A DNA stretch of 33,157 nt from Candidatus Poribacteria bacterium (GTDB lineage Bacteria; Poribacteria; WGA-4E; PCPOR2b): positions 1 through 33,157 of the forward strand of contig JAJEAL010000132.1 in the NCBI GenBank assembly GCA_022822785.1, in the 5' to 3' direction. The translations under genes were made by a program, and so were the position numbers. Every line of letters begins with the position of its first letter. The stretch's first letter is position 1. The notes beneath the pieces are model-generated. The model ran no database searches. It was not told the DNA's origin and saw only the letters and a list, made by a program, of their open reading frames with translations. Shown here piece by piece: positions 7,187-16,670 of the stretch.

Positions 7187-7239
7187 AACAACACGATCGT
7201 TGATCGAGGAAGCGGTTCAGTCCGAAAGGAGTGTTATCA

Positions 7240-8889
7240 ATGAAAACCTTGCAGATAACCTTGGCCTGTTTGATTCTATTGATTGGGCAAGTTTTACTGA
7301 GTGACGCTAAAACCCCTAAACCAGTGATTATTTCTGCTCCGGAGGGTGTAAATTCCGGCTGGGGGCATTCCGTTGATGTCAGTGGAAAAACGCTCATCGC
7401 CGGATACACCTCGTATACCGGCAATAATGGGGGGGCGTTTATCCTTGAACAGAAGGAGAACACATGGGAGATTTTGAATCACTTTCAAACATCAAATTGG
7501 GTTATGAGGGATTGGTTTGGACACGCTGTTGCCATCAGTGGCAACACCGCTGTTATTAGTGCTTACGAGTTTGGTGGTAACAAGAGAGGCGCCGGTATTG
7601 TTTTGGTAGGTGGCCCCGGAAGAATCTACACCTACCGGCGAGGAACGAAAGGATTTATCCCGGCACAAGACTTCATAGCTGCCGATGCCCAAAACGACGA
7701 TCGATTCGGATATGCCGTTGACCTCAGTGGAGAAAATCTCCTTGCTGTTGGATCCCCCTATCATGACGAGCAGAAAGGTGCCGTGTATGTCTACGTTCGG
7801 GAGGGGGACGCATGGGTACAAAACGTCAAGCTCCAAGCGGATGACGCAGCCCCAGGAGCCCGGTTGGGGTGGGATGTCGGTGTTGATGAAAACACTATCA
7901 TTGCTGGTGCACCGCTCGCTGCTGCGCCCGAGCGGAACTCCGGTGCCGCTTATGTCTTTAAGCGTCAGGGAGACGATTGGGTGCAGGTGGCAAAGTTGAC
8001 TCCTGAAGATGGAGATGGCGGCGATGTTTTTGGTTTTTCTGTTGATGTCAGTAAGGAGCGCGTAATCGTCGGAGCCAGCAAAGATGAGAACGATGTGCAG
8101 AGGCACGGTTCCGGCTCCGCGTATATCTTTAGCAACGTCGGCGATATCTATACACAGGAAGCCAAATTGAGTGCTAAAAGACCCCAGAAAGGCGCTAACT
8201 TTGGGTTAACAGTTGCGCTTGATACCAACCGTGCCCTTGTCGGCGCGCCCACGAATGATACGAAAGTAGGTAAAGATTCCGGTGCAGTTTATTCCTTTTT
8301 AAGGGTCGATGCCGAGTGGGTACTGCAGGCAACAATGATACCTAAACTAATACCAAACGTCGCTCGAGGTCAAACCCTAACTAGCGGAGACAACATGGGC
8401 TGTGCCGTTGCGATTGATGGGGTGTTAGGACGAAAATTTAACTTCGTTGCTGTTGGTGTACGGTGGGCTGCCACTGCTAACGCTGTTGATGCCGGTTCGG
8501 TGTATGTTTTTGATACCGAAGATGAGGCAAGTCTTAATCTGCCGTTGTCCGTTGGTCCGCGCAGTGACTTGGCGTTGACGACGTTTGGAGACATCAAACG
8601 GACAGCCTTACTTCAAAACTTCCCCAATCCGTTTAATCCCGAAACATGGATACCTTACACCCTTGTCCACGATGCGGACGTGAACGTTCATATCTACGAT
8701 ATCCAAGGCGAGTTAGTCCGCCAGTTAGAGGTCGGCCCGCAGCCGGCGGGCAGCTATCTCAGCAAAGAGACCGCGGTCTATTGGAATGGTAAGGACCGGT
8801 TGGGTGCGTCGGTTTCGAGTGGTATCTATTTCTATAGGCTAAAAGCGGACGCGTTTTCAGATACCCGACGTATGGTTATCCTAAAATAA
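7240..8889 (+). CDS. Secreted FG-GAP/integrin-alpha-like seven-bladed propeller with FlgD-like C-terminal sorting domain
   Basis: The 549-residue product starts with a signal peptide (MKTLQITLACLILLIGQVLL). About seven repeats follow, each with an FG-x-V-D/A-hydrophobic-S/D strand, a hydrophobic-GA/SP turn and a closing SGAAYVF-type strand; this is the FG-GAP propeller pattern. Residues 457-549 form a FlgD-like Ig tail opening NFPNPFNPETWIPY and ending in RRMVILK. Tails of this kind are found on secreted proteins of Bacteroidetes-related and poribacterial genomes and are linked to cell-surface sorting. AAAGGAG at 7225-7231 is eight bases before the ATG at 7240, so the GTG at 7231 is rejected. 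A TTGACA at 7082 with a weak TTTATG 17 bp on could be its promoter. Ligand and partners are unknown. Confidence 0.85.
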   Translation: MKTLQITLACLILLIGQVLLSDAKTPKPVIISAPEGVNSGWGHSVDVSGKTLIAGYTSYTGNNGGAFILEQKENTWEILNHFQTSNWVMRDWFGHAVAISGNTAVISAYEFGGNKRGAGIVLVGGPGRIYTYRRGTKGFIPAQDFIAADAQNDDRFGYAVDLSGENLLAVGSPYHDEQKGAVYVYVREGDAWVQNVKLQADDAAPGARLGWDVGVDENTIIAGAPLAAAPERNSGAAYVFKRQGDDWVQVAKLTPEDGDGGDVFGFSVDVSKERVIVGASKDENDVQRHGSGSAYIFSNVGDIYTQEAKLSAKRPQKGANFGLTVALDTNRALVGAPTNDTKVGKDSGAVYSFLRVDAEWVLQATMIPKLIPNVARGQTLTSGDNMGCAVAIDGVLGRKFNFVAVGVRWAATANAVDAGSVYVFDTEDEASLNLPLSVGPRSDLALTTFGDIKRTALLQNFPNPFNPETWIPYTLVHDADVNVHIYDIQGELVRQLEVGPQPAGSYLSKETAVYWNGKDRLGASVSSGIYFYRLKADAFSDTRRMVILK

Positions 8890-9088
8890 TTATCCCCTGA
8901 CGTTGTTTAACCCCTTTCCAGCTCCTCCAAAGCCCAGGAGAGAGTCCGATTAGCTAACCGCTACTTTTGGCTGTATATCGATAATCTGTTTATCATTGAG
9001 CCGGAGCCGGGCGGCCTAATAACTCACGCCTTTGTTGTCGCAAACGTATCAGTCTCTTCGTTCTTCATCGCGCTCTAGGAAATTGATT

Positions 9089-11200
9089 ATGCCAACAGAT
9101 CGAGACCTTATTCATCAAACGCTCACGGGCAATCCACAGGCTTTCGACTCCCTGGTCCAGAAATATCAGCCGGTGATTTATGCGCGATCACGGCTTCTCG
9201 TACAGAATCCGCAAGATGCCGAAGATCTAACGCAAGAAGTGTTTATCAAAGCGTATCAGAATCTCACAAAACTGCGCGATACCAGCCGGTTTGCCGGGTG
9301 GCTGTCGCAGATTACGAAGAATGTCTGTGTGACATGGCTCCACCAGCAGAAGGGAATGTCGAAATTTTACACGAGGGATGGGGATGTGGCTTTAAGTCTA
9401 TCTTCTGCTGAGGCGACGCCCGAACAATTCCTGATGAAAAAAGAATTGAACCAGACAATCTTGAAGGCAATTCATTCGCTGCCTGCTACGGATGCGGCAG
9501 TTACGCACGATTTTTACATTGACTACCTCAGCTATGACGAAATCTCAGAGAAACACGGATTGTCACATCGTGCCATCGCTAGCCGACTACATCGCTCCAA
9601 ACAGCGCATCGCCGAGAAGATCAAGCGTTCTCTCAGCACATTCGGTGTATTCTGGAAGCTTTGGGAGACACCTCTACTGAAAGGAATAAAGGTTATGTCA
9701 ATCGTTGCGCGTTCTTGGTCTATTTCTTTCGTGATTCACCTGTGTCTTGCTGTTATCATTGGAATGTATCTGGTAACGCAAAGCCAATCATTCAAGGATT
9801 TAGTGGGTGTTGAAATCATTCAGCGGACAAATCCGCCGCCCAAGCCGCAAGTTCGAAAACCGGTTATCAAACCCGTTCAAAAACCAGCGGTGCCAATTAA
9901 AAACACGGTCGTCGTTGAACCGGCTAAAGCTCAACCGAGGGCAACGAATACGGCTGTCGTTCGCACATCCTCTGTCCAACCGCGCACCGTTTCCGCGTTC
10001 TCAAATCAAGCCTTGAAATTCAACGTTCCCGTCAACGCCAATGTGCCGAAAGTGGTCAACCCGAATGTACTTGTGCCTCAAATTGTAACACATACGGATG
10101 TACCCATTTCTGACTCGCCCGATGCGCTAGCATGGTCTTCACCTGCCATTGCAGGCATAGGGCAAAACGGTGGACGCATGGGCCGTGGGATTGGGGGTGG
10201 TGGTCGTGGACTTTCTGACAATCCTGTGCAGGTCAGGATCACTGATGTGTTCGAGTTGCCGTCGGCGCTTGCGATGGTCAAGGAGGTTGGAGCCGTTCGG
10301 GATGCCTTGGACAGCGTAGTTGATAACATTGTGCTCGGTAATCTTGAAGTGCTGCCCCTGCCCCGTGGTGAGCCGGGGGGTCGCGTTATTGGTAAGGGCC
10401 GTGATATTCGTGGTCTCCTCCGTTTTACTCGTGTCCGTCACAGTCTTTCTGATTGGTGGGCAGATGCTTCTGCGCTGACTGCGTGGACAAAATGGATGAA
10501 CGCACGGACGAAAATTAAAACAGACATGAACGTCGAAGGCGGAGCACTTAAGTTCACCGATGTGGACCTACATAAAGCCCCTCTGCTTTTCATGACAGGA
10601 CATGATCCAGCACTCGCCCGTTCCGGTGGCTTGATAGGTCATGGGTACGGCGGTAATAAATTGGACAGCCGCTTGTCTGAACCTGAAGCAGTGGCGTTGC
10701 GTCGGTATCTGGTTGAAAGGGGTGGTGTCCTTTACTTTGACGACTGTGGCGTGAACGCACCAGCACAGGCGATGATTCGTATGTTCTTGGCTCAGATGCG
10801 TCTTATTATACCTGAATATCAGGTGACGCGGATTCCCAATGACCATGAGATATACAGCAATTTCTATGAGATGGGCGGACCGCCTGTTGGGTTTGATGTG
10901 TGGTGGTCGGGAGCCAAAGGGCCAAGGTTGAACTATCTCGAAGGAATTTTGGTTGATGACCATATTTCCGTCTTGATATGCCGTCGTGATTATATGTGTT
11001 CTATGGAGTCAATCGGTGTGCCAAGCCGTGATACGCACTACTCGCCTAATGTTTACCGTTTTATGACCAATGTTGCCATCTATGCGCTCACACACGGTAA
11101 AATTTCAGATTACTCCGGTTATTTGCCGGAAGATAAGCAAGCGCAGCAAAAATTTCCAAGCCGTGCGCCACAAGCGGCAACCATCGGAGCGGTTAAGTAA
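9089..11200 (+). CDS. ECF sigma factor fused to a membrane-anchored TonB-like/DUF4159 protein
   Basis: The 703-residue frame has three parts. Residues 1-185 are an ECF sigma factor: region 2 includes DAEDLTQEVFIKAY (43-56) and region 4 includes YLSYDEISEKHGLSHRAIASRLHRSK. A single membrane helix follows at about 210-232, then a proline/lysine-rich stretch (PPPKPQVRKPVIKPVQKP) like the periplasm-spanning part of TonB. The last part is a DUF4159-like domain opening LRFTRVRHS and DWWADASAL. The predicted topology puts sigma in the cytoplasm and DUF4159 outside. AGGA lies eight bases before the ATG at 9089, so the upstream TTG at 9032 is rejected. There is no stop between the parts, but an internal Shine-Dalgarno sequence and ATG at 9695 could also yield the C-terminal part alone. 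A paralogue of that part follows at 11483. Membrane tethering of sigma is inference. Confidence 0.8.
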   Translation: MPTDRDLIHQTLTGNPQAFDSLVQKYQPVIYARSRLLVQNPQDAEDLTQEVFIKAYQNLTKLRDTSRFAGWLSQITKNVCVTWLHQQKGMSKFYTRDGDVALSLSSAEATPEQFLMKKELNQTILKAIHSLPATDAAVTHDFYIDYLSYDEISEKHGLSHRAIASRLHRSKQRIAEKIKRSLSTFGVFWKLWETPLLKGIKVMSIVARSWSISFVIHLCLAVIIGMYLVTQSQSFKDLVGVEIIQRTNPPPKPQVRKPVIKPVQKPAVPIKNTVVVEPAKAQPRATNTAVVRTSSVQPRTVSAFSNQALKFNVPVNANVPKVVNPNVLVPQIVTHTDVPISDSPDALAWSSPAIAGIGQNGGRMGRGIGGGGRGLSDNPVQVRITDVFELPSALAMVKEVGAVRDALDSVVDNIVLGNLEVLPLPRGEPGGRVIGKGRDIRGLLRFTRVRHSLSDWWADASALTAWTKWMNARTKIKTDMNVEGGALKFTDVDLHKAPLLFMTGHDPALARSGGLIGHGYGGNKLDSRLSEPEAVALRRYLVERGGVLYFDDCGVNAPAQAMIRMFLAQMRLIIPEYQVTRIPNDHEIYSNFYEMGGPPVGFDVWWSGAKGPRLNYLEGILVDDHISVLICRRDYMCSMESIGVPSRDTHYSPNVYRFMTNVAIYALTHGKISDYSGYLPEDKQAQQKFPSRAPQAATIGAVK
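9680..9697 (+). promoter_or_regulatory. Internal Shine-Dalgarno and in-frame ATG at the sigma/DUF4159 junction
   Basis: AAAGGA at 9680-9685 is followed nine bases later by an in-frame ATG at 9695 (codon 203 of the fusion). The tandem paralogue's start at 11483 aligns with this ATG (MSIVARSW against MSTVSRYW). That makes it a likely original or still active start for a separate membrane protein. Confidence 0.5.
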
Positions 11201-11287: not shown

Positions 11288-11482
11288 TCGAATGTCAACA
11301 ACATCTAGTTTATCATTCACCTTAAGAATAGTTATGTGGTAGAATCTAGAGTGTTCATGAGTTTGGATTGCCTCTCGTTAATTGAAATAGTTTGCGATCT
11401 CGATTAACCCTACTATTGAGAAAATCGACTCATGATGCCTAAATTATCCTAGCGCCATTGGTTATTAAGGGGGATGAAAATT

Positions 11483-13012
11483 ATGTCCACCGTTTCACGT
11501 TATTGGTTTGTCTCGCTTGCTATTCATTTGTGTCTCGCTGTTATCATTGGAATATATCTGGTAACGCAAAGCCAGCCATTCAAGGATTTGATGGGCATGG
11601 AAATCCTTCAACCAGCGAATCCGCCGCCCAAACCGCGAGTTCGGAAACCGGTCATCAAACCTGTTCAAAAGCCAGCGGTGCCAACTCAAAGCACAGTCGT
11701 TGTCGAACCAACTAAAATCCAACTGAGACGGACAAATGCGGCTGTCGTTCGCACCGCTACTGTCCAACCGAGGACCGTCTCTGCCTTCTCAAATCAAGCC
11801 TTGGAACTGAATGCTCCGATCAACCCCAATGTGCCGAAAGTGGTCAACCCGAATGCACCTATACCTCAAGTCGTAACCCATACAGATATGCCTATTTCTG
11901 ACGCCCCCGATGCGCTAGCCTTGTATTCATCCTTCGTCACAGGCACAGGTAAAAACGGTGGACGCATGGGAGGTGGGATTGGAGGTAGTGGTCGTGGAAT
12001 TTCTGGGAGGACTGTTCAGGTCAGGATTACTGATGTGATCGAATTGCCCCCGGGGCTTACGGTGGTCGAGGAGGTTGGAGCTGTTCAGGACGCCTTGGAC
12101 GAGGTAGTTGATGGTATTATGCTCGGTAATCTTGAGGTGTCCCCCCTGCCCCACGGCGAGCCGGGAGGCCGTATTGTTGGAAAGGGTCGCGATATTCGAG
12201 GGGTGTTCCGTTTTACGCGTCTTCGTCACGATCTCTCTGACTGGTGGGCTGATGCGTCCGCGCTCAACGCATTTACGAAGTGGCTCAATGAAAAGACGCA
12301 AATCCGAACAGACATGAACGTTGAGGGTGGAGCGTTAAAGTTGACTGACGCTAGTGTGATGAAATCGCCGATGCTCATCATGACTGGACATGATCCCGCG
12401 CTTGTTGCTAGTTCACAGGCTTTAAAGCAATTGGATACTAGGCGTAAAGACAGTCAATTCTCTCAATCGGAAGCGGTCTCGTTGCGTCGATATCTGGTCG
12501 AAAAAGGCGGGCTCCTCATTTTTGATGACTGTGGTTTCTATGGTGCTGCTCAATCAATGACCCGCCTGTTTTTGACTAATATGCGATACATCATGCCAGA
12601 ATATCAGGTGGGACGCATTCCCAACAGCCATGAAATTTATCACAACTTCTATCAAATGGGTGGTCCACCCATTGGCTTTGATATTTACCAACCCGGGCGG
12701 ACCATTTCCCGTTTTTCAACGCACTTTTCTCTTCCATCACGCAATTTTCTTGAAGGCATTTTGATTAGCGACAAACTTTCTGTGCTGGTTATTCGTCGAG
12801 ACTATATGTGTGCGATGGAGGCAGTCAGTCTGCCAAGTCGTCCTGTGCACTACTCACCGAGTGTCTACCGTTTTATGACCAATGTCGCTATCTACGCGCT
12901 CACACACGGTAAAATTTCAGATTATTCCGGTTATGTGCCAGAGGATGAGCAAGAAGAGCAAAAATTTCCAAGCCGTGCGCCGCAAGCGGCAACAATCGGA
13001 GCGGTTGAATAG
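11483..13012 (+). CDS. Membrane-anchored TonB-like/DUF4159 protein, tandem paralogue without sigma domain
   Basis: This 509-residue protein has one N-terminal membrane helix (about residues 8-27). A proline/lysine-rich TonB-like spacer follows (PPPKPRVRKPVIKPVQKP), then a glycine-rich linker (GGRMGGGIGGSGRG) and the DUF4159-like domain from about FRFTRLRHDLSDWWADASAL. It is closely similar to the C-terminal two thirds of the preceding fusion over its full length. The ATG at 11483 is nine bases after AAGGGGG; the ATG at 11474 abuts that sequence and is less likely. A TTCACC/TAGAAT pair with an 18-bp gap (11316-11345) could be a promoter. DUF4159 function is not established; a link to TonB-type energy coupling or envelope transport is inference. 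Only one such gene in the pair carries the sigma domain. Confidence 0.8.
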   Translation: MSTVSRYWFVSLAIHLCLAVIIGIYLVTQSQPFKDLMGMEILQPANPPPKPRVRKPVIKPVQKPAVPTQSTVVVEPTKIQLRRTNAAVVRTATVQPRTVSAFSNQALELNAPINPNVPKVVNPNAPIPQVVTHTDMPISDAPDALALYSSFVTGTGKNGGRMGGGIGGSGRGISGRTVQVRITDVIELPPGLTVVEEVGAVQDALDEVVDGIMLGNLEVSPLPHGEPGGRIVGKGRDIRGVFRFTRLRHDLSDWWADASALNAFTKWLNEKTQIRTDMNVEGGALKLTDASVMKSPMLIMTGHDPALVASSQALKQLDTRRKDSQFSQSEAVSLRRYLVEKGGLLIFDDCGFYGAAQSMTRLFLTNMRYIMPEYQVGRIPNSHEIYHNFYQMGGPPIGFDIYQPGRTISRFSTHFSLPSRNFLEGILISDKLSVLVIRRDYMCAMEAVSLPSRPVHYSPSVYRFMTNVAIYALTHGKISDYSGYVPEDEQEEQKFPSRAPQAATIGAVE

Positions 13013-15152: not shown

Positions 15153-16670
15153 TTATTTTACGGTGACATACCGTGCTTGCCCCTCATGTTTTACAAGTAG
15201 CAAGACCTTGGGTTCCTCCATCACCTTGTCCACCGCCGATTTGAATTCTGCCACGTTGTGAATGGCTTGGTTCTCGACTTCAAGGATCAGATCCCCTCTG
15301 CGGAGGCCCGCTTTAGCAGCCGCACTACCCGGGGCTACGCTAGCAATTAACACCCCTTCATCGGTAGTGTGCCCAAGCTTTTCAGCCAGATCTGCCGTCA
15401 GATTCTGAACAGAGACTCCTTTCCAAAGCTCTACATGTGCCTCAGAATCGTCGGTAGGCGGGGCAATCTGTGCGGAACGTTGACTAAGCGTCACAGAAAT
15501 ATCTTGCGTTTGACCATCCCGCAGGATAGAAATCGAGACGGTGGTCGCCGGTTTATGCCTAGCGATTGCAGCACGCAGATGATTCACATCCTTAATTGTC
15601 TCACCGTTAATAGTGACGATTACGTCACCTTTTTGTAAGCCGAATTCTTCTGCGGGAGTGTCATTGAGGACACGGTTGACTAGGACACCCATCGGTTTGT
15701 CTAAACCTAGTTTCGCAGCGAGATCGGAATCAATCTCCTGAATCGAAACGCCCAGCCAACCACGCGCGACTTTTCCGTCTTCAATCAGCTCGGTGGCAAC
15801 CTGTCTAACTGTGTTAATCGGAATAGCAAACGTTGACGAGCCCCCGACGCTCATTCCGATGATTTCGCCTTCTACGCTAACAATGGCACCACCACCCACA
15901 CCGGGATTCAGATTCGCGTCTATCGCGAACCAGTTTTCATAATCGACGATGTGCGGGTTGCGTCCAACACCGCTAATCATACCCAAAGAAATTCCGGGCT
16001 CCTGATTCGGGCTATGTCCTAGGACGACTGCCAACTCACCCAAGGTAACGTCGTTCGAGTCGCCAAATTTTGTTGTCGGCAGTGCACTGCTTTCGACTTT
16101 AATCACAGCAATCCCTGTGCCTCTATCAGATGCAACCACTTCAGCCCTAAGCTGTGTACCGTCCTGAAGCGTGATAGCAATCCCCTTACTATCGTCGACC
16201 AATTCCCTAACGGTGGCAATGTGCCCGTGTTCATCAAGTACGATGCCGGACCCGAAATTGATTTTAGGTTGAGTCATATTTGGGCGGATCTCGTCAGGCA
16301 TAGGTATCACATCACGGCGTCGCCCTTGCCTCTCACGATACGGATCAGGGGAAAAGAAATACTCTTCGGGCGCTTCACCTCGATCCGGGTTTTCGCGAAA
16401 CCAACGACGAAATTCCTCCGGACCGAACGGAAATACGTCGCGACGTTCAAAGTGCTCAAAGCGCGGTGTCCAATCCCTGTCTTCATCTGACCGCTCAATT
16501 TTAATTCCAACAACTGCTTCTCCAACTTCCTGTGCGAGCACGGCAAAGCTTTGACTGAGTGTTTGCAGTGTTTGTCGTTCATCCGCCGCCGATGCAGCAT
16601 GTTGGAGTATACCAAAGGCGAGTACGCAGATGAAGAGGATGCTACGTGTGTGGGTTACATTCACTTTCAT
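15153..16670 (-). CDS. HtrA/DegP-like pseudoprotease with two PDZ domains (catalytic triad lost)
   Basis: The 505-residue protein has a signal peptide (to about AASA, residue 28). A long charged LA-like loop (60-135) follows, then a trypsin-fold domain with NFGSGIVLDEHGHIAT, FGDSNDVTLGELAVVLG and DANLNPGVGGGAIV, and two PDZ domains (about 303-395 and 415-505). All three catalytic positions are replaced. The TNNHVV box reads TVRELV (His to E156), the RTDLAL box reads GTGIAV (Asp to G186), and NPGNSGG reads NPGVGGG (Ser to G259). It should be periplasmic and not a serine protease. A chaperone, scaffold or sensor role through the PDZ domains is inference. The reading frame is intact and a strong GGGAGG precedes the ATG at 16670, so it is not a decaying pseudogene. 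Confidence 0.88.
   Translation of the reverse strand: MKVNVTHTRSILFICVLAFGILQHAASAADERQTLQTLSQSFAVLAQEVGEAVVGIKIERSDEDRDWTPRFEHFERRDVFPFGPEEFRRWFRENPDRGEAPEEYFFSPDPYRERQGRRRDVIPMPDEIRPNMTQPKINFGSGIVLDEHGHIATVRELVDDSKGIAITLQDGTQLRAEVVASDRGTGIAVIKVESSALPTTKFGDSNDVTLGELAVVLGHSPNQEPGISLGMISGVGRNPHIVDYENWFAIDANLNPGVGGGAIVSVEGEIIGMSVGGSSTFAIPINTVRQVATELIEDGKVARGWLGVSIQEIDSDLAAKLGLDKPMGVLVNRVLNDTPAEEFGLQKGDVIVTINGETIKDVNHLRAAIARHKPATTVSISILRDGQTQDISVTLSQRSAQIAPPTDDSEAHVELWKGVSVQNLTADLAEKLGHTTDEGVLIASVAPGSAAAKAGLRRGDLILEVENQAIHNVAEFKSAVDKVMEEPKVLLLVKHEGQARYVTVK

Follow-up and report, generated by a model that had tools for sequence, protein, structure and literature searches.

An ECF sigma factor joined in one reading frame to a TonB-type membrane anchor and a DUF4159 domain in Poribacteria

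Membrane control of ECF sigma factors is mostly exerted through anti-sigma domains, which are either separate proteins or fused to the sigma factor itself. A gene at positions 9089 to 11200 of the window (the whole stretch of 33,157 nucleotides analysed here, a contig of a 5.6 Mb Poribacteria genome, G000) raises the question of whether a sigma factor can be tied to the membrane with no such domain, and whether the joined frame that encodes it is real. The frame runs on the forward strand from the ATG at 9089 to the TAA at 11198-11200 and specifies 703 amino acids with zero internal stops. Its product carries, in order, ECF sigma regions 2 and 4, a junction of about 30 residues, one helix, a Pro/Lys-rich spacer and a DUF4159 domain. 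A single uninterrupted frame with these parts had been proposed by a sequence-only reading of the window, and the frame check, Pfam and hydropathy confirm it.

The ECF sigma domain occupies 9089..9637 (+), with region 2 at 9152-9352 and region 4 at 9458-9610. Pfam places Sigma70_r2 at residues 22-88 (1.4e-14) and Sigma70_r4_2 at residues 124-174 (2e-5), the latter at 24.4 bits and hence narrowly below its curated cut-off of 25.7, and NCBIfam reports a match to the sigma70-ECF family TIGR02937 (6.5e-25). Region 4 is nevertheless sound despite this marginal Pfam score, because the sigma part (residues 8-178) matches the SigW structure 5wuq along nearly its full length, and the RpoE and AlgU structures also. 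In the Pfam, NCBIfam and PDB matches taken together, regions 2 and 4 are present and regions 1 and 3 absent, as in ECF sigma factors. The junction (residues 177-202; 9617..9694, +) is stop-free and contains no zinc-finger motif. Region 4 and the helix of the window protein are separated by about 30 residues free of Cys and His, and Pfam returns no match there to an anti-sigma domain, whether FecR-like or zinc-finger. Hydropathy identifies one hydrophobic helix at about residues 211-229 (9719..9775, +), which is of the TonB/TolA type and bears the motif Ser213-x3-His217. It is followed by the Pro/Lys-rich spacer (9800..10080, +), predicted to be disordered, with pLDDT below 50 across residues 240-418. 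The chain ends with the DUF4159 ectodomain (10298..11197, +), which Pfam places at residues 528-667 (3e-25, 89.3 bits against a curated cut-off of 25.9). Structure prediction for the whole protein scores poorly overall (pTM 0.41). In its model (mean pLDDT 68), the DUF4159 part is matched to the structure 4i66 of Hoch_4089 with an E value of 2e-10 and a TM-score of 0.74 by target length, and a profile comparison returns the same structure at 7e-14; the window ectodomain thus shares both domain family (PF13709) and fold with 4i66. By analogy with the N-in topology of TonB, the sigma factor would lie in the cytoplasm and DUF4159 outside the inner membrane.

An open frame in one assembly may arise from two genes joined through a lost stop or a frameshift error, and the internal ATG of the frame does lie at the position where free DUF4159 proteins start. 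The sequence-only reading had advised a search for the same fusion in related genomes, and had named a stop or frameshift at the junction in other assemblies, or two separate genes in all relatives, as refuting it. Among the Poribacteria MAGs compared, G002 and G003 each have complete in-frame fusions of both forms, A and B, and G004 has a complete B fusion whose DUF4159 part contains one in-frame UGA; G005 has one copy, whose sigma part is interrupted by an assembly gap. The fused frame is accordingly known from the species of the window and from three or more others in its genus, in two paralogous forms, A and B, and the junction is open in these other species. Across its 26 codons (177-202), pS is 0.4-0.6 against a pN of 0.11-0.25; the difference gives Fisher p values of 0.0003-0.005 in four of the seven pairs, which are non-independent, and is weaker in the three pairs that involve G004 (0.06-0.33). 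On these codon alignments, the amino acids of the junction are kept between fusions, and the closest comparisons show purifying selection on its codons. Since pS exceeds pN across species, the fused frame represents a conserved coding unit rather than a chance absence of stops. An open and selected junction that repeats in independent assemblies of other species rules out an assembly artefact or lost stop for all practical purposes.

The fusion could also be chiefly a DUF4159 envelope protein in which the sigma domain does little. The DUF4159 membrane protein is present in 85 of the 85 Poribacteria species searched, and the sigma-fused form occurs only in the genus of the window among the matches listed from these genomes; this narrow distribution, along with the persistence of free paralogs after sigma loss, would suit an idle sigma domain. 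However, sigma regions 2 and 4 are both complete, and the sigma domain is under strong purifying selection, being more constrained in the A copies (dN/dS about 0.1) than the DUF4159 part (about 0.2), so that a sigma domain merely carried along is very improbable. Within the genus, no fusion is found in G001, a one-contig genome. Candidate fusions in other genera were rejected, as the long frames beside DUF4159 proved to be sigma genes that stand apart from it and have C-terminal extensions of their own.

The origin of the fusion may be traced through an internal site at 9680..9697 (+), made up of a Shine-Dalgarno sequence AAAGGA (9680-9685) and an ATG (9695-9697). In alignments, this ATG coincides with the start codon that free DUF4159 proteins use, which suggests that the fusion arose when a sigma gene was placed in front of a DUF4159 gene, leader and body included; judged from the alignment, the internal start is probably a relic of the free gene. 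A start codon is also retained at the equivalent place in free paralogs that have no sigma part. The sequence-only reading had proposed that an internal ribosome site there yields both fused and free forms. The site itself stands, with Shine-Dalgarno and ATG intact in the A copies, but the B fusions of G002 and G003 have lost the Shine-Dalgarno while keeping the joined frame open, and the codon in G003 is GTG; hence two products are possible in A copies and are not a general property of the fusion. Production of the whole fusion together with a free DUF4159 protein from ATG 9695, the latter competing with or diluting the tethered sigma, is favoured by the intact site of the A copies and by the aligned ATG that free paralogs kept after sigma loss. 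Set against the eroded B copies and the separate free DUF4159 genes already present in all genomes, it remains a doubtful proposal. One such free gene lies in tandem with the fusion at 11474..13012 (+): this group C paralog has the same anchor, spacer and DUF4159 domain without the sigma part, at 70% identity. Remnants of sigma region 4 are found just upstream of the group C orthologs in G004 and G005, and group C was hence most likely derived from a fusion through loss of the sigma part.

The membrane anchor invites comparison with energy-coupling proteins. The Ser and His of the Ser-x3-His motif in the E. coli TonB helix touch ExbB (PMC12215075). The same motif is present in 54 of the 54 distinct helices of the family against 5.3 expected by shuffling, these being related sequences and not 54 independent cases, and the helix segment is homologous to that of the TonB of the same genome (BLASTP, 3e-6 in that single comparison). 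The earlier proposal of a membrane-tethered sigma factor in one polypeptide, with a TonB-like anchor and a DUF4159 ectodomain, thus finds support at the level of sequence. It may be asked whether the helix docks ExbBD, with DUF4159 engaging an outer-membrane or wall partner, so that force or the proton gradient, acting via the spacer, would control cleavage or the access of sigma to RNA polymerase. The conserved motif, the homology to the TonB helix and the presence of one ExbB-ExbD-ExbD locus in the genome agree with such coupling. That locus, however, is on another contig, unlinked to the fusion; by Pfam, the fusion has no TonB C-terminal domain (PF03544) and carries DUF4159 in its place (the genome has three TonB_C matches, with zero in the window); and, since free DUF4159 proteins are the source of the helix, docking to a motor may be of use to them and only be carried along in the fusion. 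A motor-coupled sigma factor is considered unlikely, and the same applies to direct gating of sigma release by the ExbBD motor or envelope tension through a motor-binding anchor of the TonB/TolA type, as a form of one-chain cell-surface signalling. The locus L188 (G000:C89) encodes an ExbB-like protein whose N-terminal region is repeat-like; after it come two ExbD genes and a response regulator of the sigma-54 type.

The two forms of the fusion differ mainly in the ectodomain. Their sigma, anchor and spacer parts are close, whereas their DUF4159 parts are far apart, and trees of these two segments are in conflict. The DUF4159 part of B shares 78-79% identity with subfamily E, a separate group that has a member in the same region of G002. 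On this evidence, the B ectodomain was most likely replaced through recombination, and an exchange of ectodomains between A and B is what would be expected of a sensor module.

Because evolution has kept the chain joined, it is likely to relay a signal from the envelope to genes with no separate inhibitor protein of the usual kind. The preferred reading is that of a single-chain, membrane-tethered ECF sigma factor, which would be held inactive and released by HtrA/DegS-type and then RseP-type cleavage following a signal to DUF4159; the full scheme has about an even chance of being correct, and release of the tethered sigma by proteolysis is considered probable. Tethering would keep the sigma inactive, although with no anti-sigma domain in the chain it may not suffice by itself. 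A signal arriving at the DUF4159 domain would lead to a cut outside the membrane by an HtrA/DegS-type protease, and a second cut inside the membrane by an RseP-type protease would free the sigma, which could then bind RNA polymerase and switch on its own gene and others. Internal initiation at 9695 may add some free DUF4159 protein in A-type copies. A precedent is the single-chain sigma factor IutY, which is activated through cleavage by Prc and RseP (PMC8999054). An RseP-type M50 (site-2) protease is encoded in the genome of the window. The candidate site-1 protease is an HtrA/DegS-type protein with Trypsin_2 and PDZ domains (Pfam), encoded at 15153..16670 on the reverse strand, 2 kb downstream of the fusion and its paralog. 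An HtrA-type gene lies beside the cluster in G000, G002, G003 and G005; in the G004 stretch L068, where the neighbours are the same, none is found between them, which counts against the scheme.

Alignment of six upstream regions identified a block at 9031..9088 (+), TTTGTTGTCGCAWA...GTCTT...TAGGAAATTGATT, kept in all A and B copies and regarded as a candidate ECF-type auto-promoter with a ribosome site, its promoter role being a prediction. The full motif occurs once in the window. A regulon search for its exact upstream 14-mer in five genomes of the genus returned the sequence nowhere but at fusion genes; a near-match in G001 was rejected as a chance hit. Directly upstream of the fusion, at 7231-8889, is a gene for an FG-GAP repeat protein with a FlgD_ig/Por_Secre_tail-like C-terminus, which is kept in G002 and G003.

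Several known systems share parts of this design. IutY (ECF243) of Pseudomonas putida likewise joins an ECF sigma factor and a membrane regulatory part in one chain (PMC8999054). Its extension is a membrane-bound anti-sigma, whereas the gap between sigma and helix in the fusion accommodates none and the ectodomain is DUF4159. Similarly, SCO4117/ECF52 of Streptomyces combines sigma, helix, proline-rich extension and C-terminal extracytoplasmic domain in a single chain, a group described as exclusive to Actinobacteria (PMC5826349). In ECF52, unlike the fusion, the helix is preceded by a zinc-finger domain and followed by a carbohydrate-binding module. The feature common to IutY and ECF52, a sigma factor and a helix within one selected frame, is found in the Poribacteria gene. 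TonB and TolA resemble the fusion in their N-in single helix with Ser-x3-His (PMC12215075), which in TonB is also followed by a Pro/Lys-rich spacer; the fusion differs in that DUF4159 replaces the TonB C-terminal domain and a sigma factor precedes the helix. The sigma factor is thus tied straight to a TonB-type anchor without an anti-sigma domain, and its ectodomain has apparently been swapped by recombination. It thereby becomes possible to test whether tethering is enough to control a sigma factor, and whether gene control can take input from a Ton-type motor.

Literature searches on Poribacteria with ECF sigma factors, and on DUF4159, returned no paper. A quick tree, in which some branches are long, groups the sigmas of all six fusions into a single clade (SH-aLRT 100). 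Its sister group consists of other Poribacteria proteins in which an ECF sigma, a short linker and one helix are likewise followed by a long C-terminal part. The listing of these sigma-TM proteins was drawn with the sigma of the fusion as query and is no census. They differ from the fusion in their ectodomains (CarboxypepD_reg, M16, BNR/sortilin-like, or none recognised by Pfam) and in the TonB motif, which is absent from the helices inspected. The genome of the window has 28 region-2 matches, among them about seven frames that show a helix after the sigma part. Poribacteria ECF sigmas with long C-terminal extensions, many with one helix and with varied ectodomains, are found at L007-L012, L018, L028, L084-L109 and L189-L200. 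As the sigma of the fusion sits among such proteins, single-chain tethered sigmas are common in the phylum; hence tethering itself is not unique, and the sequence-only reading understated its spread. What is unusual about the fusion is its TonB-type anchor, its lack of an anti-sigma domain and the exchange of its ectodomains. DUF4159 genes and ECF sigma genes adjoin outside the genus of the window too. At L118-L121, L123, L124, L129, L132, L143 and L169, all from other genera, the free DUF4159 gene has about 300-700 bp downstream of it an ECF sigma whose long extension is soluble; the one extension scanned, that of L119, consists of TPR and AhpC-TSA.

The UGA of the G004 fusion leads to a side finding. 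In subfamily E of DUF4159, an in-frame UGA occurs at one position in ten genes of eight genomes, namely the G004 sigma fusion (L063:5466-7676) and L230, L231, L232, L233, L234, L235, L236, L237 and L238, and three further copies have Cys at this position. Six of the seven pairs tested show purifying selection on the sequence past the UGA (dN/dS about 0.1-0.2), and the remaining pair is near saturation. A SECIS-like hairpin with the loop GGUC is conserved 33 nt after the UGA, and codons +10 to +13 show zero synonymous variation in the ten UGA copies. The GGUC loop resembles that of E. coli fdhF; it has changed to GGUU in the two Cys fusions and is kept in the third Cys copy. Rfam gave nothing useful on the UGA region. 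The gene for tRNA-Sec is present in 11 of 11 genomes searched, with the anticodon TCA in the four checked, and SelB in seven of seven. From these sequence features, subfamily E is a probable new selenoprotein family with one member fused to an ECF sigma; DUF4159 does not figure among the DUF entries retrieved from a 2026 review of prokaryotic selenoproteins (PMC13188914). If this is true, the G004 protein would be a sigma factor fused to a selenoprotein domain. The window gene itself belongs to a sister subfamily, outside the UGA-bearing one.
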